From the IMG/VR virus record IMGVR_UViG_3300022674_000012, positions 1-21,078 of that record: a stretch of DNA of 21,078 nt. One strand, given 5' to 3'. Under the pieces are notes generated by a model. That model was not told where the DNA came from. It did no database searches and saw only the letters and a list, made by a program, of their open reading frames with translations. Positions within the stretch are counted from its first letter, which is position 1. Each line of letters opens with the position of its first letter. This DNA comes from a virus. The position numbers were made by a program, and so were the translations under genes. This document shows, one piece after another, positions 1,905 to 16,772 of the stretch.

Positions 1905-4900
1905 ATGATTTGTCCAAATAAGAATACTCAAGAGTGGAAAGATTTAGTAGCCAAACATGGTGAGACTAAAGCTTACGCATTATATAACAGAGGTTTAACA
2001 GAAGATGCTAATTCATCAGATGCCTTAATAACAACTAAAGCAGATAGAGAAAATATATCTAACGATGCTGGTTTAATTAAAGGTGTTCCTTTAGGTGTTC
2101 AAAAACTAGCTATGCAAAATTTAGTTAGAAAGTTTGTGGTTGAAGCTCTTGATAAAAAAGATATTGGGGCTAAATCAACTGATGCTATTCCTAAATATGT
2201 TGCTGCTATTAGAAAAAAAGCAGAGGAGTTAACTCAAGAAGTTGCTGATTTACAGGAACTTGTTAATAGTGACGAATTAACTGCTGAAGAACGTTTAGAA
2301 GCAGAACAATATTTACATGAGTATTCAAGAGAATTATCTGTTATTGAGGCTTTATTTGAAGATGCTGTTAGTAAAGATTCTCAAATAATACAAAAAGCTA
2401 AATTATACTTAGAGGCATTAAACGGATTTAATGTAACTAAAAATGCTAATAAAGGTGTTGATAGTACTCGTACTGCTAATGACGAATTAGAAGAAACTGA
2501 AGGTGGGTTAGATAGAACAAGTAATTGGGATGATAACTTTACACTTACTACTGATAGTAAAACTACTATGTCTTCTCAACTTAGATTATTCTTAGCGTCT
2601 ATTAGTGACCAAGAAATAGTTGATGGAGAAAGAGTACCTAAAAAAGATTTCTTAGATAGTATAGTTAGTATTGATTTTAATAAAGCTTATGAAGAATTAC
2701 ATAGAGCTACTGCTGGTCTTAATCCTAATTATGATGATGTTATAGCGGCTATTAAAGATTATGCTTCTTCAAATGTGGAGTCAAAATTATGGACTGACCA
2801 ACTTATTGATGAACTAGATAATGCTCCATTAAATATACAAGCTGGATTTGTTGTAGATATGACTAAGCATTATGTAGATATGCAGATGTTATCCTATGAT
2901 GTTATACAATTAAGAGAAGAAGATGGAGTTGATGTTTATGGAAATAAATTTTATAAAACTAAAAATGTATATAGACTTACATTAAAAAATTCTAACCAAG
3001 CTGGATTAACTACTGGAAATATTACTAAATGGAGTAGTAATATGAAAAATAGTAGATTAATGAAATTTGATGATAAAGCTGGAGATTGGTTTTATGATGT
3101 ATCCGAAGAAGACTTAGCCAGAATAAGAAAAAAATATAATCAAATACGTAATGGTGTTCCGAATGCTAAGTCTTTAATTAGTTATTTGAATGAATTTGGT
3201 ATAACTTTACATCCAGATGCTGCTAATGAGTTAGTGAATAGAAAAAGTATTTATTTAGATAATGGTATTAAATACAGTTATCTTGCATTTAAAAATACTT
3301 TATTAGGAGATTTATATAATGAACTAGCTGCTATAGTAGATAATGTCGATAGAGTATATTTAAAAGACAATAACATAATAAATCAGAAGTCTATAAAACC
3401 TATGGCTAGAATAAATGCTAAGTTTACTCCTGATTTATTTACAAATTCCACAAGAGTTGGGGATAAGCAAATTTATTCGTATGTTAATAATAAATATGTA
3501 ACGGATAGATTGCGTGACCTTAAATCAAATTATAAGGGTATAGTTACTGAATTATCTAATACTGTATTTACAAGACATTCTTATTTCCTTAAACAATTAA
3601 TGGAAAGTAAATCCAATGTTAAGGAATGGTTAAATATAGGATATGTATCATTGAAGCCTATCGATACTCCTTCTAAAACTAAACAACGTTCATTAAATGA
3701 ACTTACAGATGCTGAGCATGAGTTTAAAAAGATTGGAGACTTCTTTGCTAATAGACATTATACAAATAATACTAAATTTAGAGAGCGTAAAGCCTTATAT
3801 TTCTATCCAACAAGTTCGGATAAAACTATAAATATGGCTGTAGAAGCTCCAGCTATTAAATTAGAATATGATAATTCTGGTCAAATTATAGATGAGCAAA
3901 TAGACTTACTTATAGATTATGTTGTCCGTTCTGAATGGGATAGAATACATAATGGTTTAGATGGTGAAGGAGATAGTCAATTCTACTTTTTCCCAGAATT
4001 AAATCAGAAATCATTTACAAGAACATCTGATGATGGTAAAACAAAAGAAAAGATTACATTTAATGATTTAGCTAAAAATACTAATGTAATAGATGACCAA
4101 ACTCGTACTGCATTAAGATATATTATTAGAGAAAGAATAACAGCTTTATCTCAAGATAAAATTAATTTTTGGTTAGAAAATGATATAGGTACTCATGAGA
4201 GAAATGCTAAAAATAAGATTACAACAGCTTATAAATTCTTACCTTATAATGTAATACAAGAAATTAAAAAGGAATATAATCCAAAGAAAAATCGTGAGCT
4301 ATTTACTTATATGGCTAATGATATGGTATTTAACTATATGTTTACATTGGCTAATACTTTTCAATTATTTATTGGTGACCAAGCTTTATATCATAAAAAG
4401 GATAATAAATTTAGAAATGATAATACTATAGATAGTTCTACACGAGAAGAACTTAATAAAAGAGAGCATTTACTAACCTTAGATAACTTAGGTAAGCGTA
4501 TGGCATCTGAAATAGCTCCAGGTAATGCTATGTCTAATCATGTATTTGAAAAAGAGACAGAGCGTATATTTGGTAAATCTTCTAATAGTTATATTCAAGT
4601 TCATTTAAATGATTTTAAAACACAAACTAATCCAGATATATTAAAACAATATACTAAATTATTTAAAGATAATATTACAAAGGAAGATGATACAAAAGCA
4701 TATTCTAATATAGATGCTACAGATGCTCAAGAATATACTACTTGGAGAGAGCATTTATTAATAATGCTAAGTACTGATAAAATAAAAGAGCATGAGTATA
4801 GAAAATTATATGATGCTCTTGAAGCGAGTGAGACTAATCCTAATAAAGACCTTAAAGGTGATTTATTAAAACTAGTTATGACCCCATTAAAACCAGTGCA

Positions 4901-7900
4901 TACTAGCATGAAAAGGTTTAAAGTTGGAGGAAATAATTATGAGAGAAGGGTTTATATAAAATCATCTTCATTTCCATTATTACCACAGTTAACAAGAGGT
5001 AGTGAATTAGATAAGCTTAGACAATATATGACTGACTTAGAAAATAGTCAAAAAACTACAGTTCGAGCATCATATAATACAGCAACTAAAGTTGGATTTC
5101 CTAAAAATGTAACAAACATATTTAACGAAGATGGTACTATTGCTGAAATAAAAGCTCATAATTGGGATGATGAATATGAAGTCCCAGATGGTACTAATAT
5201 TGTATTTGAAAAATTAGATAGAGAAGGTTTTAGAATACAACAAGATGTTCCTTTTAAAGAAGCTAAGACTGAAATTAATGTAGGTTCACAAGAATCTAAA
5301 TTATCTTTTGCCAATATATTAGATGTTGGTGTAGAGAATGAAAAAGAAATGTTTGTCTATGACGGTAAAAAGTTTACAGGTAAAGCTCTTAAAGAAGAAT
5401 ATGTTAAACTATTAGAAGCTCAATATGAAAGGTTATATGATAATTTTTCAAAACGTTTTACTACTAAAGATGGTGTTGTTAAAACCCATAAAATAGCTAA
5501 AGTATTATTGGATGAATTATCAAGATTAGGTACACCTAGTGTTAGTGAGGTTAAAGGGTTAGAAATTGATGAAAATGGAGAGTTTAAAACTCCATTATGG
5601 TTAAGTCCTCATTCTAAAAGATATTCTGCTGTAATAAATTCATTAATTACTCAAAATACAACTAAAAGAACCACTAGAGGGCGCTCTTATGTATTAGGGT
5701 CTGAGGCTGGATTTAAGCAACTTGAAGGAGAAAACACTGGTATTGTATACACTGATGAGTATAATGGTAAGGAGCTCCTTCCTATGCGTGTTGAAAAGGA
5801 TGAAAACGGTAATGATGTAGTTAAACCTGCTCAAATTATGGTTTCCTTCAATATGTTTAAAGACATGAATAAACTTAATAGTTCTTCTAAAGGAGCTTTA
5901 AGATTGCGAGATTTTATGGATGGGGATAAGATTGACCATTCCAAACTGCCTAAAGAACTATTAAAAGGGTTTGGCTTTCGAATCCCTACCCAATCTCATT
6001 CATCTATGACAATGTATGAGATAGTAGGATTTTTACCTGAATCTCAAGGGGATTTATTTATAGCTCCTAAAGAATTTGTAGCCCAAATGGGTAGTGACTT
6101 TGATATTGATAAAATATATGCGTATACATATAATACTTATGTAAACTCTAAAGGCCAACTTGTTAAAGTTAAGCACGTTCAAGAGGATTTTGAATACCTA
6201 GACCGTGAAACTAAAGAAGTATTTACTAAATTTGATAAAGATTATGATGCTGATGTTCAAAATAGAATATTAGATATACATATGGCTATCATGTCTAATC
6301 CTTCTGATACTGTTCAAAAGAGTATTATGAAGCCTTTAGATATGGGGCTATTACCTAAATATAAACAATTATTAGCTAAAGAAGATACGGGATTACAACC
6401 AACTTATTTATCTGATTCATATAATAGAGATAAATATATGAGTGGTGTATCTGGTAAATCAGGTACTGCATTCTTTGCTCAAGCTTCAGTATTTAATGCT
6501 ATGATACAAGGTGAAAATGTTTCAATGTATCATAATATACAAGTTAATAAAAAGAATGTACCTGTAAGTGAACAAATAACGTTTGGTAATAAATATTTTC
6601 AATGGAATGGTGATTTATTTGAAGTTAATTCATTAAAGAAAAGTTCTAAAAGACCTAAGTCTGAAATATTTGCTGGATTTTTATCCGCTGCTGTAGATAA
6701 CGAAAAGGAAAGATTATTAGATAGCTTAAATATTAATGCTAATACATTTGATGTTATTGGTTTATTGATACAAGCTGGATTTGAAGAAGATATTATAATA
6801 CCATTTTTAAATCAGCCAGCTATTATAGATTATATAACTCAAGTTAAAAAAAGTAGGTCTATAATTAGTGAAAGTAAAACAGAAAAAGAAATAGCTGAGG
6901 AATTATTAGCTAAATATCCAACAACTGACCCATCATTAGCTGATTTTATAGGTGAGAATGCAGAACAAAAAATGCTTGACTTATTAAGTAAAAGTAATGA
7001 TATATTAGATTATGAAGACTATCAAGGAGCATTATTACGTAAATTTTTAGACATTAAAGACATAGCCGAAGGGTATAGAAATGCTTTACAATTTTCAAAT
7101 ACAGATTCTAAAGGTTTAGGTAAAAACTTAACAGAATCTATGTTTAAGATTAATTCTATGTTTAAAGTTGAGATGGAGATGACTCCTGTTAAAGTTACTA
7201 ATGTAAAAGCAGCAGCTAATAATTCATCATCTGGTTTGGCTTTTGATAATTATAGAAAAGGATTGCGTCTTGTGTCTAATGAATTTGTTGTTGTAACACA
7301 AAGCGAAGATTTTAAAAATATGATGGAAACCTTTGCTAAGGTTACTGGTAGAGATGTTACAGAGTTAAATAGTCAAGATTATGAAAACCTTAGTGAAGCA
7401 GTTAAACATTATGTATTAGGAAATAATTCTGACTTACGTAGAGATTTACTTAGAGGTGAAAATAGTGTAAGAAAAAGATTAGAAAAAATATCTGATAGTG
7501 ATTACTTTAAGAAAAATAACTTCTTTAATAAATTAGAATTATCAGGTAGAGAAGAGGCTAAGGGCTATGATGCTGTAACTTTCAATATGAATATAACAAA
7601 TGAGTTTATTAATGATGAGATATATCAGCATCTTGTAGACGCATTAAATAAAGATACTGAAATTAATGGAGTAAATGTAGCTCAATTAGCTGAAGACTTA
7701 GTTACTTATAGTATTCTTGATGGTGCTAGATTTTCACCATTATCATTTTCTAAATTTTTGCCAACTATATATTTTGAAAGATTAGGTCTTAATAGAAGAG
7801 CTAAAGGTTTAAATATAGAATTAGAATATCCTCAAATAGTTGAACAGTTTTTACAACATAATCCTTCTCTCGCTAAGTCAGCTAAAGGTAAAATATCAAC

Positions 7901-9677
7901 TAATGGTACTGAATTTATACCAACAAATCCTAATAGTACTCCTGTATATGTTAGGAGAATTATAGACACAGTGCCAGCTTTATTCAAAAAAGATAGAGAT
8001 AGTGGCGGATGGTATCGTATTCATACATTAGGTGATGGTGAAACATTATATGAATATTCAAAACCTAGTATGACTATAGCTACTTCTGTTCTTAACGGTA
8101 AACCTGAGTATAAGGAATTATTTAGCGGTACAGATAGTGGTGGATATAGAAGTGATTCTAAAATAAAGACAGCTACATTAACTGGTGATGAGATTTTCGA
8201 TGATTCAGAAGAAAATTTAGCTATAACCGATGCTCCACAAGACCTTATTAAAATTATAAAGAGCATGAATCATCCTTTAGCTAAAGAAATATCTAGATTA
8301 TTTCCTAATTTAATAGATAACTATACAATACAATTAGGTAATTTAGGTGAAGCTTTAGGTATACATAACAATAAAGGTAAGTGGATTAAAATAGATACAG
8401 AACTATATAATAATGGAGATGTTTATCAATTAGAAGAAACAATTTTACATGAAACATTTCATGCCATAACTGTTGACTTATTAGATAATAGAGATGAGTT
8501 AAGTGATGAGCAAAGATTATTAATAAATAAAATTTCATCTAAAAGATATGAAGTACTTGAAAAATTAGAAGGTCAAGACTTACTTGATTTTAATAATTTT
8601 TTAAAACAATTTTATAATTATTTTTATGATAAAGCTGATGGAAATGTAGCTAAAGCTAAAAGATTATTTTTAAATAAAATTGACGTTGGAGATGTTCATA
8701 AATCAACTGATGAAACTATAGCTGAAATTTTAAAAAGTACTACAAAATATCCTAACCAGGAAATAAAAAATAGACATAGTTATTATTCATTAGTCAATGA
8801 TAAAGAATTTGTTGCTATTGTAGCTACAGATATAGATGCTAGAGTATTTATTGACAAAAAGTTAGGCCCTCTAAGTGGTGTAGCTCAAATTAAACAATGG
8901 ATTAAAGAGTTATTTGCATCATTAGGGTTTGATATGACTGCTAGTGGAGAAATTGTAAGCATGATATTTGACTTAGCTTATGGTGCACAATCAGAGTATA
9001 TTAAGAAAAAGCCTGATATGAATTATCCAAATTTAGGATTTGAAAGTCATCCTTTTAATAAAGTAACACATGATGATGGTTCTTTTATCTATATAGATGC
9101 TGAAGGTAATGATTTAAATAATAGACAAATAGAAAATTTAAAATATCTAACTAATGAGAATCCTCCTGTTCAACAATATGAAGGTCATCCTTTCTATTTT
9201 ACAGAAGAAGGAACTGTAATTGATGCATTAGGTAATGAACATACATATGCTCAAATATCTAATTTAAGTCTTGCTACTTTACCTAAAGAGCATGATAATC
9301 TTAGAGCTATTCATAATCATTTGAAAAATAAAGATATAACTGATGATAAATATAAACCTTTTAATAAGTTTAAAGTTATAGCCGACTCGTATATAGCTAA
9401 GCAGAAAGGTACATACTATGAAGAAGCAGGTGTAATTTATTACAAACAAGATATGTTTGAAATAGGAACATCTGAAGGTAATATTTTAGATATGTCAGAA
9501 TATGAGGACATTAGAAGAAAAATATTAGGTCTTGATGATTCAACAGAGGCTTCAATAGATATGGGAACAGAATCTAAACCAATAAATGGTAGAGATTTCA
9601 TTAATGAATTAACCCCAGACGAAAAACGATATATATTACAATTACAATCAGAAGGGCTGATTAAAATAAACTGTTAA
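1905..9677 (+). CDS. Giant virion DNA-dependent RNA polymerase with C-terminal zincin-like motif
   Basis: A 2590-residue protein. Residues 1398-1402 read DFDID within GSDFDIDKIY, the metal-binding triad reported for the crAss-like virion RNA polymerase (phi14:2 gp66) and equivalent to DFDGD of the bacterial beta-prime subunit. About 40 residues upstream, RIPTQSH (from R1359) resembles the R-x-P-T-x-H stretch preceding that loop in beta-prime. YIKSSSFPLLP (near 1017-1027) and SGKSGT (K1518) are candidates for other active-site elements, by inference. HETFH at 2182-2186 fits a zinc-metallopeptidase HExxH. The N-terminus begins MICPNKNTQEWKDLV, followed by coiled-coil-like helices. In crAss-like phages this enzyme travels in the virion and transcribes early genes after ejection. 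The start follows the previous stop by 5 bases, with no Shine-Dalgarno site. It appears unsplit; other relatives may divide it into subunits. Confidence 0.9.
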   Translation: MICPNKNTQEWKDLVAKHGETKAYALYNRGLTEDANSSDALITTKADRENISNDAGLIKGVPLGVQKLAMQNLVRKFVVEALDKKDIGAKSTDAIPKYVAAIRKKAEELTQEVADLQELVNSDELTAEERLEAEQYLHEYSRELSVIEALFEDAVSKDSQIIQKAKLYLEALNGFNVTKNANKGVDSTRTANDELEETEGGLDRTSNWDDNFTLTTDSKTTMSSQLRLFLASISDQEIVDGERVPKKDFLDSIVSIDFNKAYEELHRATAGLNPNYDDVIAAIKDYASSNVESKLWTDQLIDELDNAPLNIQAGFVVDMTKHYVDMQMLSYDVIQLREEDGVDVYGNKFYKTKNVYRLTLKNSNQAGLTTGNITKWSSNMKNSRLMKFDDKAGDWFYDVSEEDLARIRKKYNQIRNGVPNAKSLISYLNEFGITLHPDAANELVNRKSIYLDNGIKYSYLAFKNTLLGDLYNELAAIVDNVDRVYLKDNNIINQKSIKPMARINAKFTPDLFTNSTRVGDKQIYSYVNNKYVTDRLRDLKSNYKGIVTELSNTVFTRHSYFLKQLMESKSNVKEWLNIGYVSLKPIDTPSKTKQRSLNELTDAEHEFKKIGDFFANRHYTNNTKFRERKALYFYPTSSDKTINMAVEAPAIKLEYDNSGQIIDEQIDLLIDYVVRSEWDRIHNGLDGEGDSQFYFFPELNQKSFTRTSDDGKTKEKITFNDLAKNTNVIDDQTRTALRYIIRERITALSQDKINFWLENDIGTHERNAKNKITTAYKFLPYNVIQEIKKEYNPKKNRELFTYMANDMVFNYMFTLANTFQLFIGDQALYHKKDNKFRNDNTIDSSTREELNKREHLLTLDNLGKRMASEIAPGNAMSNHVFEKETERIFGKSSNSYIQVHLNDFKTQTNPDILKQYTKLFKDNITKEDDTKAYSNIDATDAQEYTTWREHLLIMLSTDKIKEHEYRKLYDALEASETNPNKDLKGDLLKLVMTPLKPVHTSMKRFKVGGNNYERRVYIKSSSFPLLPQLTRGSELDKLRQYMTDLENSQKTTVRASYNTATKVGFPKNVTNIFNEDGTIAEIKAHNWDDEYEVPDGTNIVFEKLDREGFRIQQDVPFKEAKTEINVGSQESKLSFANILDVGVENEKEMFVYDGKKFTGKALKEEYVKLLEAQYERLYDNFSKRFTTKDGVVKTHKIAKVLLDELSRLGTPSVSEVKGLEIDENGEFKTPLWLSPHSKRYSAVINSLITQNTTKRTTRGRSYVLGSEAGFKQLEGENTGIVYTDEYNGKELLPMRVEKDENGNDVVKPAQIMVSFNMFKDMNKLNSSSKGALRLRDFMDGDKIDHSKLPKELLKGFGFRIPTQSHSSMTMYEIVGFLPESQGDLFIAPKEFVAQMGSDFDIDKIYAYTYNTYVNSKGQLVKVKHVQEDFEYLDRETKEVFTKFDKDYDADVQNRILDIHMAIMSNPSDTVQKSIMKPLDMGLLPKYKQLLAKEDTGLQPTYLSDSYNRDKYMSGVSGKSGTAFFAQASVFNAMIQGENVSMYHNIQVNKKNVPVSEQITFGNKYFQWNGDLFEVNSLKKSSKRPKSEIFAGFLSAAVDNEKERLLDSLNINANTFDVIGLLIQAGFEEDIIIPFLNQPAIIDYITQVKKSRSIISESKTEKEIAEELLAKYPTTDPSLADFIGENAEQKMLDLLSKSNDILDYEDYQGALLRKFLDIKDIAEGYRNALQFSNTDSKGLGKNLTESMFKINSMFKVEMEMTPVKVTNVKAAANNSSSGLAFDNYRKGLRLVSNEFVVVTQSEDFKNMMETFAKVTGRDVTELNSQDYENLSEAVKHYVLGNNSDLRRDLLRGENSVRKRLEKISDSDYFKKNNFFNKLELSGREEAKGYDAVTFNMNITNEFINDEIYQHLVDALNKDTEINGVNVAQLAEDLVTYSILDGARFSPLSFSKFLPTIYFERLGLNRRAKGLNIELEYPQIVEQFLQHNPSLAKSAKGKISTNGTEFIPTNPNSTPVYVRRIIDTVPALFKKDRDSGGWYRIHTLGDGETLYEYSKPSMTIATSVLNGKPEYKELFSGTDSGGYRSDSKIKTATLTGDEIFDDSEENLAITDAPQDLIKIIKSMNHPLAKEISRLFPNLIDNYTIQLGNLGEALGIHNNKGKWIKIDTELYNNGDVYQLEETILHETFHAITVDLLDNRDELSDEQRLLINKISSKRYEVLEKLEGQDLLDFNNFLKQFYNYFYDKADGNVAKAKRLFLNKIDVGDVHKSTDETIAEILKSTTKYPNQEIKNRHSYYSLVNDKEFVAIVATDIDARVFIDKKLGPLSGVAQIKQWIKELFASLGFDMTASGEIVSMIFDLAYGAQSEYIKKKPDMNYPNLGFESHPFNKVTHDDGSFIYIDAEGNDLNNRQIENLKYLTNENPPVQQYEGHPFYFTEEGTVIDALGNEHTYAQISNLSLATLPKEHDNLRAIHNHLKNKDITDDKYKPFNKFKVIADSYIAKQKGTYYEEAGVIYYKQDMFEIGTSEGNILDMSEYEDIRRKILGLDDSTEASIDMGTESKPINGRDFINELTPDEKRYILQLQSEGLIKINC

Positions 9678-9679
9678 TT

Positions 9680-12600
9680 ATGGCTTGTATAACAATAAAT
9701 GATAAATCGGCATTACAAAAACGTGTAGCGGAAGACGGTAATGCACATATAATAGCTATGCTTGAAAAAGTAGGAGTTATGGATAGTATTCAATCTAAGG
9801 CTACTCTTAGAACTAAGATAACAAATACTCGTAGACTAAGTGATTTCATAATAGCTAATTCTTATGCTGAAATGAATCTCACAAATGATGAAGCTATACA
9901 AGTTGGTGAATATCTTAAACAACAATTAGGTTTAGAGGTTAGCCCTATTACAATTAATGCAGAGGGCAAACAAATTTATGATAACAATTACTCTAAAGTT
10001 CAAATGTTAATTAATGACATGATATCTCAAGAGTTTGTTAAAACCGCTACTTCTGTAGATGAGGGTAGTGATGCTTTAATAATGGGCCCAATTATAACTA
10101 GAGAAAAAGAACGTATCTCTAATATTATTGATAATAGGTCTGCTTTAATAAAGCAAAAGGAAGAACTCATTAGAGAAGATGTTGTAGATAAAGACCGTAT
10201 ATCAGCTTTAACCGATAAAATTAATGCTTTAACTATTGACTTAGAGAAAGTAAATGACTATATTAAACACTTATCTGAGTTTCCTAATATGGCAGAAATC
10301 ACTAAAAAGTTTGATGTTGATAAGTCTAGAAGTACAATATTAATGGGTAAAGCCACTCTTACTTGGGATGAATTGACAGAGCTTAAAAAGCTTGTCCAAT
10401 TATGGAAAGGTATCACAGACCCAGACCCAAAAACTAATATACTTAAATTAGACCATGAATTAAATGACCCAGAAATAGCAGCCAGAATAGCTCAAATGGG
10501 AACATATTTTCATAAAATGGAGGCTGAGCTACATAAAAAAGAGCTAAATAAAATATTGGCTGAAATGAATAATAACAGAAAGCCAGATGAAAAAGAGTTC
10601 ACCATTAATGATATTACAAGATATGCTAAAGACGAAGGTAAAATGAACTCATTATTCCGAGGTCTAAGGAAGTCTGAGATGCCTTTGCTACGTCGTATAG
10701 CCAAAGTAGTGAGTAAAGCTAATGACGCAGCTCTGAGTGCCTTTAAATCGAAAGAACAGGTTATTGATGATGCCTATCATAAGGTAAAAAGTAAAATTCC
10801 TGGTGGCGGGACAGATTTTTCAATGTTTATTGCTAAATCTAAAGATGGAAATCCAGTTGGACAATTAGTTAGTAGATTTTCTTTTGAATTTTGGAATAAA
10901 GTTAGAAAGAATAATTCTGGCACAAGTCGTCAAAGAAGAGATTGGTTAAAAAATAATACTATGGTTGTTAAATTTGAATATCTATTTGATGATATTTCAG
11001 ATGTAGTACCTAGTGGTTATAGAAACGCTAAACAATCAGAGGTAGGAAAAGCTCAACATATAGAAAGACTTAAAGAAAATTTAGGAGAAGATGGCTTTAA
11101 TGAATATATTAAAGACACTACTGAGCTTGTGGAAGATTATTTTAAAGCTAGAGATTCTTATTATGAATCGCTATTAGATGATAATGGAAAAATGAGTACT
11201 GAAGCGGAATTAGAGTTTAGAAAATGGGATGATTATAATTCACCATTTAAACAATCTAATAATGCAGTAAATTTTAATCATAAAGGAGCTGATGGTAAAA
11301 AATTAAGAGTAAATAAGGATATGATATTACGCATTCCTTTAAAATATAACTCTAAAGGTCAAGATTTAGGATATTATGACAACGATTTTGCTAATATTGA
11401 AGCAGATAAAGACTTGTATGAATTTTATAATTCTGTTAGAGATATTATTCAAGACGCTAGAGTTAGCTATGGATATCAGTTTGGATTAAATCCTAATGCT
11501 TTACCTTATTTAGAAAAAACATTAGCTGACCAAATAACTAGTGATGGTTTTAATACAACTAAAGCCTTTCAAGTATTTGCTGATGGAGCTAGAGATTTAT
11601 GGTCTGGTAAAGAACCTGATAATACTCATATCGAATTGGATGAAATGGGTAATCTAAAAGATATTAAAATAAATAAAGGAGTTACTACTATTGATACTAA
11701 AGCTAGACAAATATATAAATTTGATGCTATAGAATTTGAAAAAGAACATGGTAGAAAGCCTAATATGGTAGAGAATCAAACCTTAATGGAACAAGCTTAT
11801 GTTAAAGCTGGTGAGAATCAAGACTTAGATTTACTTAAATTAGTTAAGCTATTAGCTATGAATGCTACAGCATATAAGCATAAAACAATAGTTAAAGGGG
11901 AAGTTGAGTTAATGACCTCTATATTTAGGTCTGCTTCTGAGTCTAATGAAAATCCTGATATGCCAAATGCAATAGCTTTCTTAGAGAATACCTTAAAAGC
12001 TGATTTTTATGGACGTTCTACTAAAGAGGTAGAGGGTAATCTTACTGGTATATTTGGAGGTAAAGGTAGATTAACTTCTGAGAATAGAAGAAAAGCTGAA
12101 TTATTAGAGTTTGAAATAGATAAAATTAATTCAAATCCTGATTTTGAACCAGAAGATAAAGCAGAACGTGTAGCTAAAGTGCAAGAAGAAATTGATGCTT
12201 TATATAATAAAGTATATGCTTCTGAAATAGCTAGAAGCTTTTTAGGTTATGCTAGAGTATTAGGTATAGGTTGGAACCTTATATCAGCTACAACAAACTT
12301 AATGTTTGGGCAAATAGGTAATTTCCAACGAGCTATTCAGGGAGACCATTTTGGTATTAAAGATATATCTGATGCATTATACCTCACAATAGGTAAAGAT
12401 GCTATGAAAATAGAAGCTATTTCACATAAATTTGGACTTGTAGGAGACCAAAGTTATTCTCTTAAAAAACAAGGAACTAAAGGTACTAGTAGATTTACTA
12501 AAGTAAAAAATGCTTTGAATCCTTATATGCTACAAACTGTGTCTGAAGGCTTCAACCAAAAGCCAATAATGGTGGCTATAATGAAAAAAACTGTAGTTAA

Positions 12601-13417
12601 AAAGCTTGACGGTTCTAATGAAGAGTCTAATGCGTATGATATATTAGACGAAAATGGTAATATAGACCCTAACTTTTATGATGAAAACGGTTTAAATGGT
12701 GATGAAATGATGGCCGAAGTAATGGATAAGGTTAGAGATGTTGTTGGACAAACACATGGTGATTATAATAGTACACTCTTAGCTAACAATAAAGTATTTA
12801 CTCAATCTTTATTAATGTTCAAACGTTGGTTAGCTGAAATGCTAAGACGACGATTTGGTAAAGGGGGAATATATTCAGTTACCGCTAAAGTAATTGGTGA
12901 TTTGATAACAGGGAGACGTTCTAGAGCAGATATAACTTCTGAAGAAAAAGGTAAAATTCGAGCTGCTCTTATAGGTGATGTAGGAATGTTATTATTAGTG
13001 ATGGGGGTACAGGGACTTTTAAAAGACTTATTGTGTGATAAACCTGATTGTAAAGATGCTCCTCCAGCATTAATGGGAACATTAAATTTATTAGAACGTT
13101 TAGAAAGCGAAATAGGATTTTTTATGAACCCTGCGAATACTTTCCAAATATTGGAGAATCCAATAGCTGGTGCTAGAATACTTGAAGATATGTGGAAAGC
13201 GATGATAATGTTCCCATATTTAATAGATGATAGTAGTAAAAAAGCTGTGTATAGAAGTAATAGTAGATATGCTGGTCAAAATAAAGCTAAAGTTGCTGTA
13301 ATGGGTATAATGCCATTTGGTAATCAATTACAAAGATTTGTTACTTATGGAAATCAACCTTCATATAAAAGACATTGGGGAAGTTATTTCGAAAATGAAA
13401 TATTTAATACAAAATAA
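9680..13417 (+). CDS. Large virion or ejection-type protein with coiled coil and C-terminal membrane segment
   Basis: A 1245-residue protein of no family I can name. It starts 2 bases after the RNA polymerase stop, so it belongs to the same transcript. The N-terminus is MACITINDKSALQKRVAEDG. Residues ~140-200 are strongly heptad-like (KEELIREDVVDKDRISAL), suggesting a coiled coil. The middle is long and hydrophilic. A Gly/Ala-containing hydrophobic stretch lies before the last third (GYARVLGIGWNLISATTNLM). Residues ~1095-1114 (AALIGDVGMLLLVMGVQGLL) form a plausible transmembrane helix, followed by a cysteine pair (LLCDKPDC). Position and architecture fit the cargo or ejection proteins released with the polymerase in crAss-like phages, possibly helping DNA and polymerase cross the host envelope. 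That role is inference. Confidence 0.75.
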   Translation: MACITINDKSALQKRVAEDGNAHIIAMLEKVGVMDSIQSKATLRTKITNTRRLSDFIIANSYAEMNLTNDEAIQVGEYLKQQLGLEVSPITINAEGKQIYDNNYSKVQMLINDMISQEFVKTATSVDEGSDALIMGPIITREKERISNIIDNRSALIKQKEELIREDVVDKDRISALTDKINALTIDLEKVNDYIKHLSEFPNMAEITKKFDVDKSRSTILMGKATLTWDELTELKKLVQLWKGITDPDPKTNILKLDHELNDPEIAARIAQMGTYFHKMEAELHKKELNKILAEMNNNRKPDEKEFTINDITRYAKDEGKMNSLFRGLRKSEMPLLRRIAKVVSKANDAALSAFKSKEQVIDDAYHKVKSKIPGGGTDFSMFIAKSKDGNPVGQLVSRFSFEFWNKVRKNNSGTSRQRRDWLKNNTMVVKFEYLFDDISDVVPSGYRNAKQSEVGKAQHIERLKENLGEDGFNEYIKDTTELVEDYFKARDSYYESLLDDNGKMSTEAELEFRKWDDYNSPFKQSNNAVNFNHKGADGKKLRVNKDMILRIPLKYNSKGQDLGYYDNDFANIEADKDLYEFYNSVRDIIQDARVSYGYQFGLNPNALPYLEKTLADQITSDGFNTTKAFQVFADGARDLWSGKEPDNTHIELDEMGNLKDIKINKGVTTIDTKARQIYKFDAIEFEKEHGRKPNMVENQTLMEQAYVKAGENQDLDLLKLVKLLAMNATAYKHKTIVKGEVELMTSIFRSASESNENPDMPNAIAFLENTLKADFYGRSTKEVEGNLTGIFGGKGRLTSENRRKAELLEFEIDKINSNPDFEPEDKAERVAKVQEEIDALYNKVYASEIARSFLGYARVLGIGWNLISATTNLMFGQIGNFQRAIQGDHFGIKDISDALYLTIGKDAMKIEAISHKFGLVGDQSYSLKKQGTKGTSRFTKVKNALNPYMLQTVSEGFNQKPIMVAIMKKTVVKKLDGSNEESNAYDILDENGNIDPNFYDENGLNGDEMMAEVMDKVRDVVGQTHGDYNSTLLANNKVFTQSLLMFKRWLAEMLRRRFGKGGIYSVTAKVIGDLITGRRSRADITSEEKGKIRAALIGDVGMLLLVMGVQGLLKDLLCDKPDCKDAPPALMGTLNLLERLESEIGFFMNPANTFQILENPIAGARILEDMWKAMIMFPYLIDDSSKKAVYRSNSRYAGQNKAKVAVMGIMPFGNQLQRFVTYGNQPSYKRHWGSYFENEIFNTK

Positions 13418-14013: not shown

Positions 14014-14941
14014 TTAAAACAATTCGTACTGTATTTTAATAAATGAGTTAATAATTTTATTAGCTTCTTTAATATAATATGAGCGTTTAACCAAAGATAA
14101 ATAGTAATCCAATTTCGATTCGTCATAATCATTCAATAAATATACATTCTCATTTGCAACAGCTTGATTCTCTTGCAAACTTCCATCTTCATTTTCTTTT
14201 ATTTTAACTAAAGAGCCAGACTTCGTACTTACAAAATATCTATTTGTTTTCTGTACTTGAGTCATGCCATCTAGCGTTCTATAGTAAGTCTTAAATTGAC
14301 TACCTGTCCTCTGAGCTATACAAAATTGCATTATATCTTTCTCATTCTCAATAGTTTCAGCTACTGGAGTGTCATTAATATAATATTCATATAATGCTTT
14401 TTGAATAATAGGATGTTTAAATCCTTTAGTTATATCTTGTTGATATAAGAAAGAACCTTTAACTTTAATCTTACCATCCGATTTAATCATTAAGAAATTG
14501 TTAACATTTTTAACAATCATCTTTTTAAATCGTTCATGTTCTAATTCGATACCTAAATTTTCAGTAATAGCTTCAACTCTAGATATAACCTCATCCAATA
14601 ATTCTCGCTTTACTTTAAATGTAGCACCATCTGTATTACTATATATACAAGTAACATCACCAACACCTTCTAAAAATTCAATAACCCCTAATAACAATAA
14701 TTGACCATTAATAGTTACTGAATACATAGTCTTATCATCCTTTAACCAAAAATAATCTGAACCTAATAGTCCGTATATTGAGTTAATTGAGATTTTAAGA
14801 GTATCGGCTGTTAATTTATCACCTGTTGCTTTAGCTTTAAGACGTTTATCTGTGATAGAACGTAGTACTTTTAAGAAAACAGGGTCTACATGCTTAGGGT
14901 GTAAACCATATTTAAGCATTATATTTGGATAAAAAGATGCG
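14014..14941 (-). CDS. DNA polymerase family B, exon 2 (polymerase palm, fingers and thumb)
   Basis: This is the 3' exon of the intron-split polymerase, joined to 15853-16772. It begins with the last base of a split Phe codon and reads ASFYPNIM, completing motif A (D-F-A-S-F-Y-P). Motif B is LKISINSIYG (K356, N360, Y363, G364 in spliced numbering). Motif C is YSNTDG (407-412), keeping the last Asp (D411), normally a metal ligand, but with Asn in place of the first Asp of the usual YxDTD. IKVKGSFLY fits the downstream KxKG-type region. The nearest ATG (14919) is internal to motif A, so a separate 301-residue product starting there would lack the catalytic Asp. Joined length is 615 residues, compact for family B and close to phi29-type enzymes. 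Confidence 0.9.
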
Positions 14942-14976
14942 CTTTTCTGTAATCTCCAATTTCTTGAAGTGTCGGA

Positions 14977-15648
14977 CTATATCTTAATTTTACGCCATAT
15001 AAAATTTCTGTAAGTAGGTTTATACCCATTACAGACAGAATATATATTTTGCCATTTATATTCTGGATTTTCTATCGTAACATCTTTTACACTATTCCAA
15101 ATTTTAATTAACTTCATATCTCTAGTATATTGAGCTATTTTAAATTTATGTTTTGCTTTACTGACTTTCTCAGCCATTTGCTGTTTTATTTCTGGATTTT
15201 CTTTCCAAAATTTAGAGCTAGTATCTCCTATTTTTTTACGAGCTTCAGGATTATTTTCATAATATTTTTTAGTACCTTCTGACATTCTTTTTTTAGTTTC
15301 TTCTGGAAGAATACATTTAGTAGAACTATCTAATCTTAAATTATAACCTTTATCTCTATTAATACTATCATACTCTACCATCCAATATAATTCCTTCTCA
15401 GAAAGTATATTATCATTTCGTTCTAAATATTCTAATACCTCGTATTCAAAACAATCTTTTCCATATTTATGCCAAGAATTAATCAAATGAATATTTTCAT
15501 TTTTATTTTTTCTATTTAAAGCTGTAATATGGTCTTTAATTCTAGTATAAATATTAATACTTTTACCTATATAGACTTTTTGATTCACCTTATTTCTAAT
15601 AAGATAAATTCCACATTTATTTAAATCACGTTGCCTATTAAGTTTCAT
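14977..15648 (-). CDS. GIY-YIG homing endonuclease encoded in the intron (I-TevI type)
   Basis: A 223-residue protein. The N-terminal nuclease has GIY (13-15), YIG (26-28), Arg36 and Glu86 (in SEKELYWM), matching GIY, YVG, Arg27 and Glu75 of I-TevI. The middle (~105-165) has two repeats with NPEARKKI and NPEIKQQM, like NUMOD3 DNA-binding modules. The C-terminus (QYTRDMKLIKIW ... NIYSVCNGYKPTYRNFIWRK) resembles a NUMOD1-type helix-turn-helix. Expected activity is cutting intronless polymerase alleles near the motif A insertion site, so that repair copies the intron in. The gene occupies the P8 loop. Its final codons make up the 3' strand of P8, and its TAG stop lies in the 3' strand of P7. The start is preceded by TATATATATAAT with no Shine-Dalgarno site. 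Confidence 0.92.
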   Translation of the reverse strand: MKLNRQRDLNKCGIYLIRNKVNQKVYIGKSINIYTRIKDHITALNRKNKNENIHLINSWHKYGKDCFEYEVLEYLERNDNILSEKELYWMVEYDSINRDKGYNLRLDSSTKCILPEETKKRMSEGTKKYYENNPEARKKIGDTSSKFWKENPEIKQQMAEKVSKAKHKFKIAQYTRDMKLIKIWNSVKDVTIENPEYKWQNIYSVCNGYKPTYRNFIWRKIKI

Positions 15649-15674
15649 ATTATATATATACGTATGGCGTAAAA
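14988..15674 (-). repeat. 12-bp perfect inverted repeat forming intron P8 around the endonuclease gene
   Basis: TTTTACGCCATA (15674-15663) is the reverse complement of TATGGCGTAAAA (14999-14988). Two more pairs (a G.U and an A-U) extend it outward. The 3' arm lies inside the endonuclease reading frame and encodes most of Ile-Trp-Arg-Lys. The placement between P3 3' and P7 3' is where P8 belongs. Confidence 0.88.
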
Positions 15675-15852
15675 CTCCCCTCGCTTTTTTAGTTAGTTAT
15701 TAACCTAACCTAATTCCTGTTATTAAGCTACATCGCTGTAGCTCAGGTAGTCTCTGCACGTTACTTCTCTGAAGTCTTCGCTCAGGATTGGCATATCTTT
15801 CGACTTAGCGTTCCCTGAATTCAAGGGGTTTTTAGTTGACTCCGCTATGTTA

Positions 15853-16772
15853 AAGTCAACATCTAATAGCGCATAATCGTCATCTTCTTCATATATTTCG
15901 TCATTATTCTTTGAATGTAATCCTCCTAATCCTAATTGATGTACCATTCCTTTAGTAGCAACGGTAGCTTCAAATTTATTATCTGATGTTATTATAGTAT
16001 TCTTAATATCATCATATAATTTCTGAAGATTTGGAGTAGTAAAGTTAAATTTATTAACTATTTCACCAAGGTTTATACTTTTATGGTAAGTTCTAAGGTT
16101 TTTAAAGTCTTTAAGGTTCTTTCCTGTATATTCTTGGTAATATTTATTCAATGTTTCTTTTGCTATATGGGTTCTTGACTCACTTAAAACGTTTACTTCA
16201 TATTCTTCACCAAAAAGATATCTTAATTTAATATCTTCCATTGAATATTTATAAAGCTTTTTAGTGATTTCTACGTCATTTCTTCCATACTTTAATATAA
16301 GGTCTACCTCCTCTGGTTTAACGTCGTCCAGGGGCTTCTTTGGTAGGTCTTGAAGCAAAGGATGTAATAATGTTACACCTACTTGCTTTAAACTAACACC
16401 TATCTTATGTAAAGCATGAATTTTCATTAAATCTATGCTATCTGGATAAGGTGCTAAATAATCTTGTACATATTGGTTTTTATATAATGGTTCTCCTTTC
16501 TTCTGTGTGTTTATAATGTTTTGAGCAATATGATTAATAGTTTTTGGACTTACATACGCTCCTCCAAGCATTATAAATCTCATTATCACATCGTCAAATC
16601 TAACATTGTTAAACCCTATCTTCCATGTTACATTATTCCAATATCTACGCAGTTCTTCTAAATCATTTCTGTCTTGGTATATAACAAAATCCCTAAACTT
16701 CTTACTGTTTAACTCGTAAAAGCAAACAGAAAAGAAGTTAGGGAATGTTTCTATATCATATATAACTCTCAT
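15853..16772 (-). CDS. DNA polymerase family B, exon 1 (3'-5' exonuclease domain and start of motif A)
   Basis: The 5' exon encodes residues 1-306 plus two bases of F307. It carries the proofreading exonuclease: Exo I YDIETF (D6, E8), Exo II GFNNVRFDD (N55, D60) and Exo III YGRND (Y162, D166). The linker includes GLGGLHS (281-287), typical just before the palm, then LLDVDF, where D306 is the motif A catalytic Asp. The exon ends GACTT; splicing adds C to complete Phe. Without splicing the frame runs 43 more codons into the intron to a TAA at 15725-15723, giving a 349-residue exonuclease-only product. The start overlaps the kinase stop as ATGA, so translation is probably coupled. The protein replicates the phage genome. 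Confidence 0.92.

Follow-up and report, generated by a model that had tools for sequence, protein, structure and literature searches.

A probable mobile group I intron carrying its own GIY-YIG endonuclease in motif A of a crAss-like phage family B DNA polymerase

A family B DNA polymerase (PolB) gene on a 21-kb virus fragment from IMG/VR is, with high confidence, interrupted in its catalytic motif A by a mobile group I intron, which is predicted from its sequence to be removed by splicing and to spread by homing through an endonuclease of its own. The fragment was analysed over its whole length of 21,078 nucleotides, called here the window (Table 1). The phage is assigned to the crAss-like phages (Crassvirales) by its giant virion RNA polymerase and its PolB (PHROG 1252). 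The former is a 2590-aa protein that matches the DNA-dependent virion RNA polymerase of Cellulophaga phage phi14:2 (6vr4; gp66 type), and the 1245-aa and 583-aa proteins beside it (9680-13417 and 148-1899) have no Pfam or PHROG match. Among the genes of the fragment, none was recognised as a crAss-like terminase, portal or major capsid protein.

Table 1. Positions of the polymerase exons, the predicted intron elements and the neighbouring gene in the window
Feature	Position	Strand	Basis and details
Giant virion RNA polymerase, DFDID motif	1905..9677	+	6vr4, 9.4e-29; PHROG 16227
3' exon of polymerase	14014..14941	-	PHROG 1252, 1.6e-66; profile aligned to solved PolB chains
Group I intron, 911 nt	14942..15852	-	RF00028, restored ORF, fold, covariation
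P9 hairpin CUUCAA-GAAA-UUGGAG	14954..14969	-	RF00028 3' piece; covariation
GIY-YIG homing endonuclease, 223 aa	14977..15648	-	PF01541, 2.9e-12; PHROG 7168, 1.6e-27
P8 5' strand	15663..15676	-	14 bp with 14999-14986; fold, covariation; loop 8 houses the endonuclease gene
P7.1 hairpin AGCUACA-GCGA-UGUAGCU	15726..15743	-	fold
P7 5' strand GACUA	15748..15752	-	pairs with 14979-14975 UAGUC; RF00028 alignment
P4-P5	15782..15818	-	P4 strands 15818-15813 UCAGGG and 15787-15782 UCCUGA; fold, pairing in relatives
P3 5' strand CCCCUUG	15822..15828	-	pairs with 15683-15677 CGAGGGG; fold, covariation
P1	15835..15860	-	exon 15860-15853 GUUGACUU with internal guide 15842-15835 GAGUCAAC; sequence
5' exon of family B DNA polymerase	15853..16772	-	PHROG 1252 DNA polymerase, 2.4e-55

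Polymerase gene and splice junction

The initial annotation had proposed that joining 15853 to 14941 gives an uninterrupted polymerase of 615 residues, and the reading frame bears this out: the joined sequence is a family B polymerase ORF of 615 aa, in frame and stop-free. On the minus strand the frame opens at ATG 16772, breaks inside codon 307 (15853) and resumes at 14941; left unspliced, it ends at a stop at 15723. The 5' exon comprises residues 1-306 and two bases of codon 307, thus covering the exonuclease part and the motif A residue Asp306, and its tblastn matches are phage PolB genes, including those of crAss-like phages and of Cellulophaga phi14:2. The 3' exon carries the remainder of motif A (ASFYP), motif B (NSIYG) and motif C (NTDG), and the two exons match PHROG 1252 consecutively (profile positions 54-355, then 364-653).

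The predicted exon junction is GATGTTGACTT joined to CGCATCTTTTTATCC, and the spliced polymerase would read LLDVDFASFYPNIM around motif A (DVDFASFYP). In a profile search of solved structures this motif aligns with archaeal PolB motif A, which is LDFASLYPSI in 1s5j. The archaeal motif A aspartate has D306 as its counterpart in this alignment; D306 is therefore taken as the motif A aspartate, and the earlier placement of the insertion in the codon after D306 holds.

The intron RNA

The interruption, 15852-14942 on the minus strand, is a group I intron as judged by its RNA sequence and predicted structure. This identity had been claimed at the outset, and it agrees with the matches to the Rfam group I covariance model (RF00028), with the fold and with the covariation. 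When 1.8 kb was searched with laxer filters, RF00028 matched in two pieces: the 5' core at 15877-15635 scored 44.3 bits (E 1.4e-9), which falls under the curated cut-off of 50 bits, and the P7'-P9 end at 14987-14955, separated from the first match by the ORF, scored 20.3 bits. The alignment covers positions 1-253 together with the separate 3' piece. Applied to the whole window, Rfam gave no intron match at either the gathering threshold or the E-value threshold; the probable reason is that the match to the model is broken up by the 672-nt ORF. It also listed no intron in seven related loci searched together, though introns are plainly present there, so that the lack of an Rfam match is uninformative for ORF-split introns of this kind.

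With the ORF removed, the intron folds without constraints into P1, P3, P4-P6, P7.1, P7.2, a 14-bp P8 and a GAAA-capped P9 (z = -6.5; 0 of 200 shuffles equally stable). P7 was added on top of this fold, where it forms a pseudoknot with P3, and its 5' strand is nearly invariant among 16 introns. P1 consists of 8 bp with a U.G at the splice site, P10 consists of 3 bp between the guide GCG at 15845-15843 and the exon CGC at 14941-14939, and the 3' terminal base of the intron is omega-G at 14942. Every element that had been listed initially (P1, P3, P4, P7, P8, the GAAA loop of P9, the terminal G and P10) is thus present in the sequence or the fold. The second hairpin, P7.2, lies between P7.1 and P3', and hairpins of this kind between P7 and P3' presumably point to subgroup IA, to which the modelled fold suggests that the intron belongs.

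Further support for the fold was provided by the window's intron compared with 15 related introns, in which standard pairs make up 47 of 48 pairs in P1, 78 of 91 in P3, 83 of 84 in P8 and 59 of 60 in P9. These counts were reached by none of 1000 shuffles, and several pair types occur per position. For P4, 36 of 42 pairs are standard, and 10 of 1000 shuffles were as good. The counting was done on anchored helices; the MAFFT intron alignment misplaces the P1 and P4 gaps. Anchor errors (the P3 entries of loci L017 and L082 and some P4 entries) were kept, which lowers the pairing counts. In dozens of loci the P1 guide varies along with the exon, and omega-G is present there.

The same data bear on the idea that the intron is dead, a degenerate insertion that inactivates the polymerase. 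The Rfam scores under the cut-off would fit such decay, and it is nonetheless very improbable, given that the helices, the P7 core, omega-G, P1 and P10 are all intact and that both exons are stop-free and conserved.

The endonuclease in loop 8

The GIY-YIG endonuclease gene of the intron was absent from the finding in the initial annotation. Its product scores 47.2 bits against PF01541 (cut-off 22.6), and a profile of five relatives inserted at the same point (site A1, see below) matches the catalytic domain of I-TevI (1ln0, 9.2e-15). The motif residues are GIY 13-15, YIG 26-28, R36, E86 and N103; G13, I14, Y15, Y26, G28, E86 and N103 are invariant in five relatives, and R36 is found in four of five. 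For NUMOD1 (PF07453) there was only an E-value of 0.11 in one family member, and this domain is not claimed. The gene's final codons double as the 3' strand of P8, and translation ends at a stop codon within the 3' strand of P7. This double use recurs in related introns, in which the P8 strands change in step, one side being protein-coding.

Some further observations concern the endonuclease genes of the relatives. The motif TAnnTTTG, the Bacteroidota -7 promoter element, precedes the endonuclease start by about 12-39 nt in 22 of the 34 distinct relatives (among them L003, L010 and L017-L075), against 5-8% in controls, and these genes may have their own promoter inside the intron; the motif is absent before the endonuclease of the window. 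The endonuclease ORFs of L053 and L061 have an in-frame TAG near the start (IYVI*NN); relatives encode an amino acid at this codon, and such a TAG would be expected in phages that translate it as an amino acid. The intron of L003 contains, between its 5' splice site at 4687 and the endonuclease start at about 4998, a tRNA-like T-arm sequence (GGGTTCGATTCCCG) in a peripheral region.

Relatives and two insertion points in motif A

A scan of IMG/VR with the endonuclease alignment yielded 66 viral loci; a scan with a single polymerase protein found one distant relative only. In about 47 of the 66, the polymerase is split at PolB motif A and the endonuclease sits at the break, which is in line with the early argument that a conserved site is where a homing element would be expected. 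The splits fall at two points. Site A1, that of the window, lies two bases into the codon that comes after that of the aspartate; site A2 is 5 nt downstream, one base into the serine codon. The right point combines the U.G P1 pairing and the final G with a clean D[VFI]x[SG]xYP, and at the wrong one there are stops, no final G or poor pairing. A single splice site for all relatives was rejected: for more than 20 of them it led to stops, to a poor P1 or to the lack of omega-G. Locus L055 is without the final G at A2, and the splice points of L020-L022 were assigned by hand.

The closest annotated relative is the isolated Flavobacterium phage Fpv1 (NC_031914, Fipvunavirus), whose predicted splice point, GATGT^TGCTGGATATTATCC, is at the same nucleotide position as GACTT^CGCATCTTTTTATCC in the window; three further early matches share it. 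The A1 position is occupied in Fpv1 and more than a dozen further loci, so the suggestion that the exact position and host gene might be new does not stand; A2 is occupied in over 20 others.

The Fpv1 record lists a DNA polymerase, a homing endonuclease and a DNA polymerase, in this order, as would be the case if motif A were the border between two distinct polymerase proteins, with no splicing and the endonuclease gene in the middle. For the window this arrangement has very little probability. The break falls within a codon and within a catalytic motif, the second piece would begin at Met 14919 and be without ASFYP, and the RNA structure is conserved and covarying, with an exon-guide pairing that tracks the exon. 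The intron remains the preferred reading.

Other positions in PolB appear to be used as well. An apparent second insertion lies just after motif B (NSxYG, profile position 382) in L033, L034, L039 and L040, and at motif C (NTDG, profile position 427) in L053, L055 and L061, so that introns may target PolB at each of its three catalytic motifs. Endonucleases of the same family also occur elsewhere in PolB (profile positions about 313, 370 and 478; L060, L063-L066, L070) or beside an uninterrupted polymerase (L054, L056-L059, L067).

For the two motif A points, we see about even chances that one GIY-YIG lineage is specialised on PolB motif A DNA, with its host introns placed at either of two splice points that lie 5 nt from each other (D-x^ and D-V-x-T^). 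The splice point of the ribozyme would then be separable from the target of the endonuclease, through sliding of introns by 5 nt or through an exchange of the endonuclease between two introns that had converged on the motif. The two points offer a handle on how endonuclease and ribozyme stay matched.

Empty alleles and horizontal movement

Of 435 pairs, 96% have a higher identity between the endonucleases than between the polymerases (means of 50% vs 34%), and the window and L075 share 65% of endonuclease residues and 29% of polymerase residues. That the endonucleases are more alike than their host polymerases argues that the element moves horizontally. In the polymerase tree A1 and A2 loci are interspersed; for example, the A1 loci L011 and L050 group with the A2 locus L053.

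Intronless relatives with an uninterrupted motif A, which the initial annotation had anticipated, were found at up to 91% identity to an occupied polymerase. The occupied L011 has two such relatives, L090 (91.3% polymerase identity) and L099 (88.5%), and the empty crAss-like sequence GATATAGATGT TGCATCACTATATCC (L012, phage cr56_1) matches the L011 flanks base for base. No intronless allele near the window's own polymerase was found, the best having 36.7% identity. The number of intronless polymerases counted by motif does not give an occupancy rate, because the insertion site lies within one of the search patterns. Occupied and empty alleles at 91% identity are natural pairs for homing tests in Bacteroidota phages.

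The motif A intron of L082 is 394 nt long, with its endonuclease cut down to about 43 aa, which suggests that splicing was retained once homing was lost. The intron of the window might likewise still splice and no longer home, its endonuclease being a passenger headed for loss. The shortened L082 intron at the same site and the lack of a promoter-like motif before the window's endonuclease would accord with this; we regard it as unlikely, since the endonuclease of the window is not truncated, its catalytic residues are invariant and it is 65% identical to one whose host polymerase is only 29% identical. The element is a genuine and very probably active homing intron.

The active intron would work as follows. 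In the transcript the intron would fold and guanosine would attack at the P1 U.G pair, after 15853; ligation of the exons at 15853/14941, as sequence and structure imply, would then give the full-length polymerase. When two phages occupy the same cell, the endonuclease would cut intronless polymerase genes near the conserved site, and repair of the break would copy the intron in, as the homology to I-TevI and the distribution of the element suggest. With active-site codons as the target, the target would persist in very distant phages and imprecise loss would be costly.

Comparison with known systems

The T4 td intron with I-TevI resembles the element of the window in being a group I intron with a GIY-YIG endonuclease of homologous catalytic domain (1ln0); its host gene is other than PolB. 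In the td intron the ORF is in loop 6, as opposed to loop 8 here. The introns of SPO1, Bastille and Pf-WMP3 lie in family A polymerases, and their endonucleases are HNH enzymes. These introns (with I-BasI in Bastille and I-PfoP3I in Pf-WMP3), which are likened to the present one by description, are also group I introns in phage replicative DNA polymerase genes (PMC11878797, PMC3428280). More generally, the splitting of phage polymerase genes by introns has been published (PMC11878797), Jug phages have polymerase genes split by endonucleases (PMC12363816), and homing endonucleases typically choose functionally critical coding sites (PMC3984707).

Nearest in kind are the group I introns with endonuclease reported in PolB of Delta and Zeta crAss-like phages (Yutin et al. 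2021, PMC7886860), again likened by description, the main text being without insertion positions. A literature search, itself incomplete in coverage, gave no description of the motif A family or its two insertion points. The introns of Fpv1, L003, L004, L011, L017 and L075 occupy the same PolB nucleotide as that of the window with the same splice logic, and their endonucleases are of the same family (50-65% identity), lie in loop 8 and have their stop in P7; the host polymerases are only 25-31% identical to the window's. Fpv1 differs in that its record annotates split genes, not an intron. Splitting by motif A introns explains the frequent annotation of polymerase genes as broken in such phages.

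PolB introns in crAss-like phages are therefore already known, and the insertion position in the window is not new. The more interesting part is the family with two splice points in motif A and one endonuclease lineage, a homing intron family that exploits the most conserved PolB codons of phages across polymerases sharing only 25-30% identity and occurs in human gut, fish-pathogen and environmental phages.
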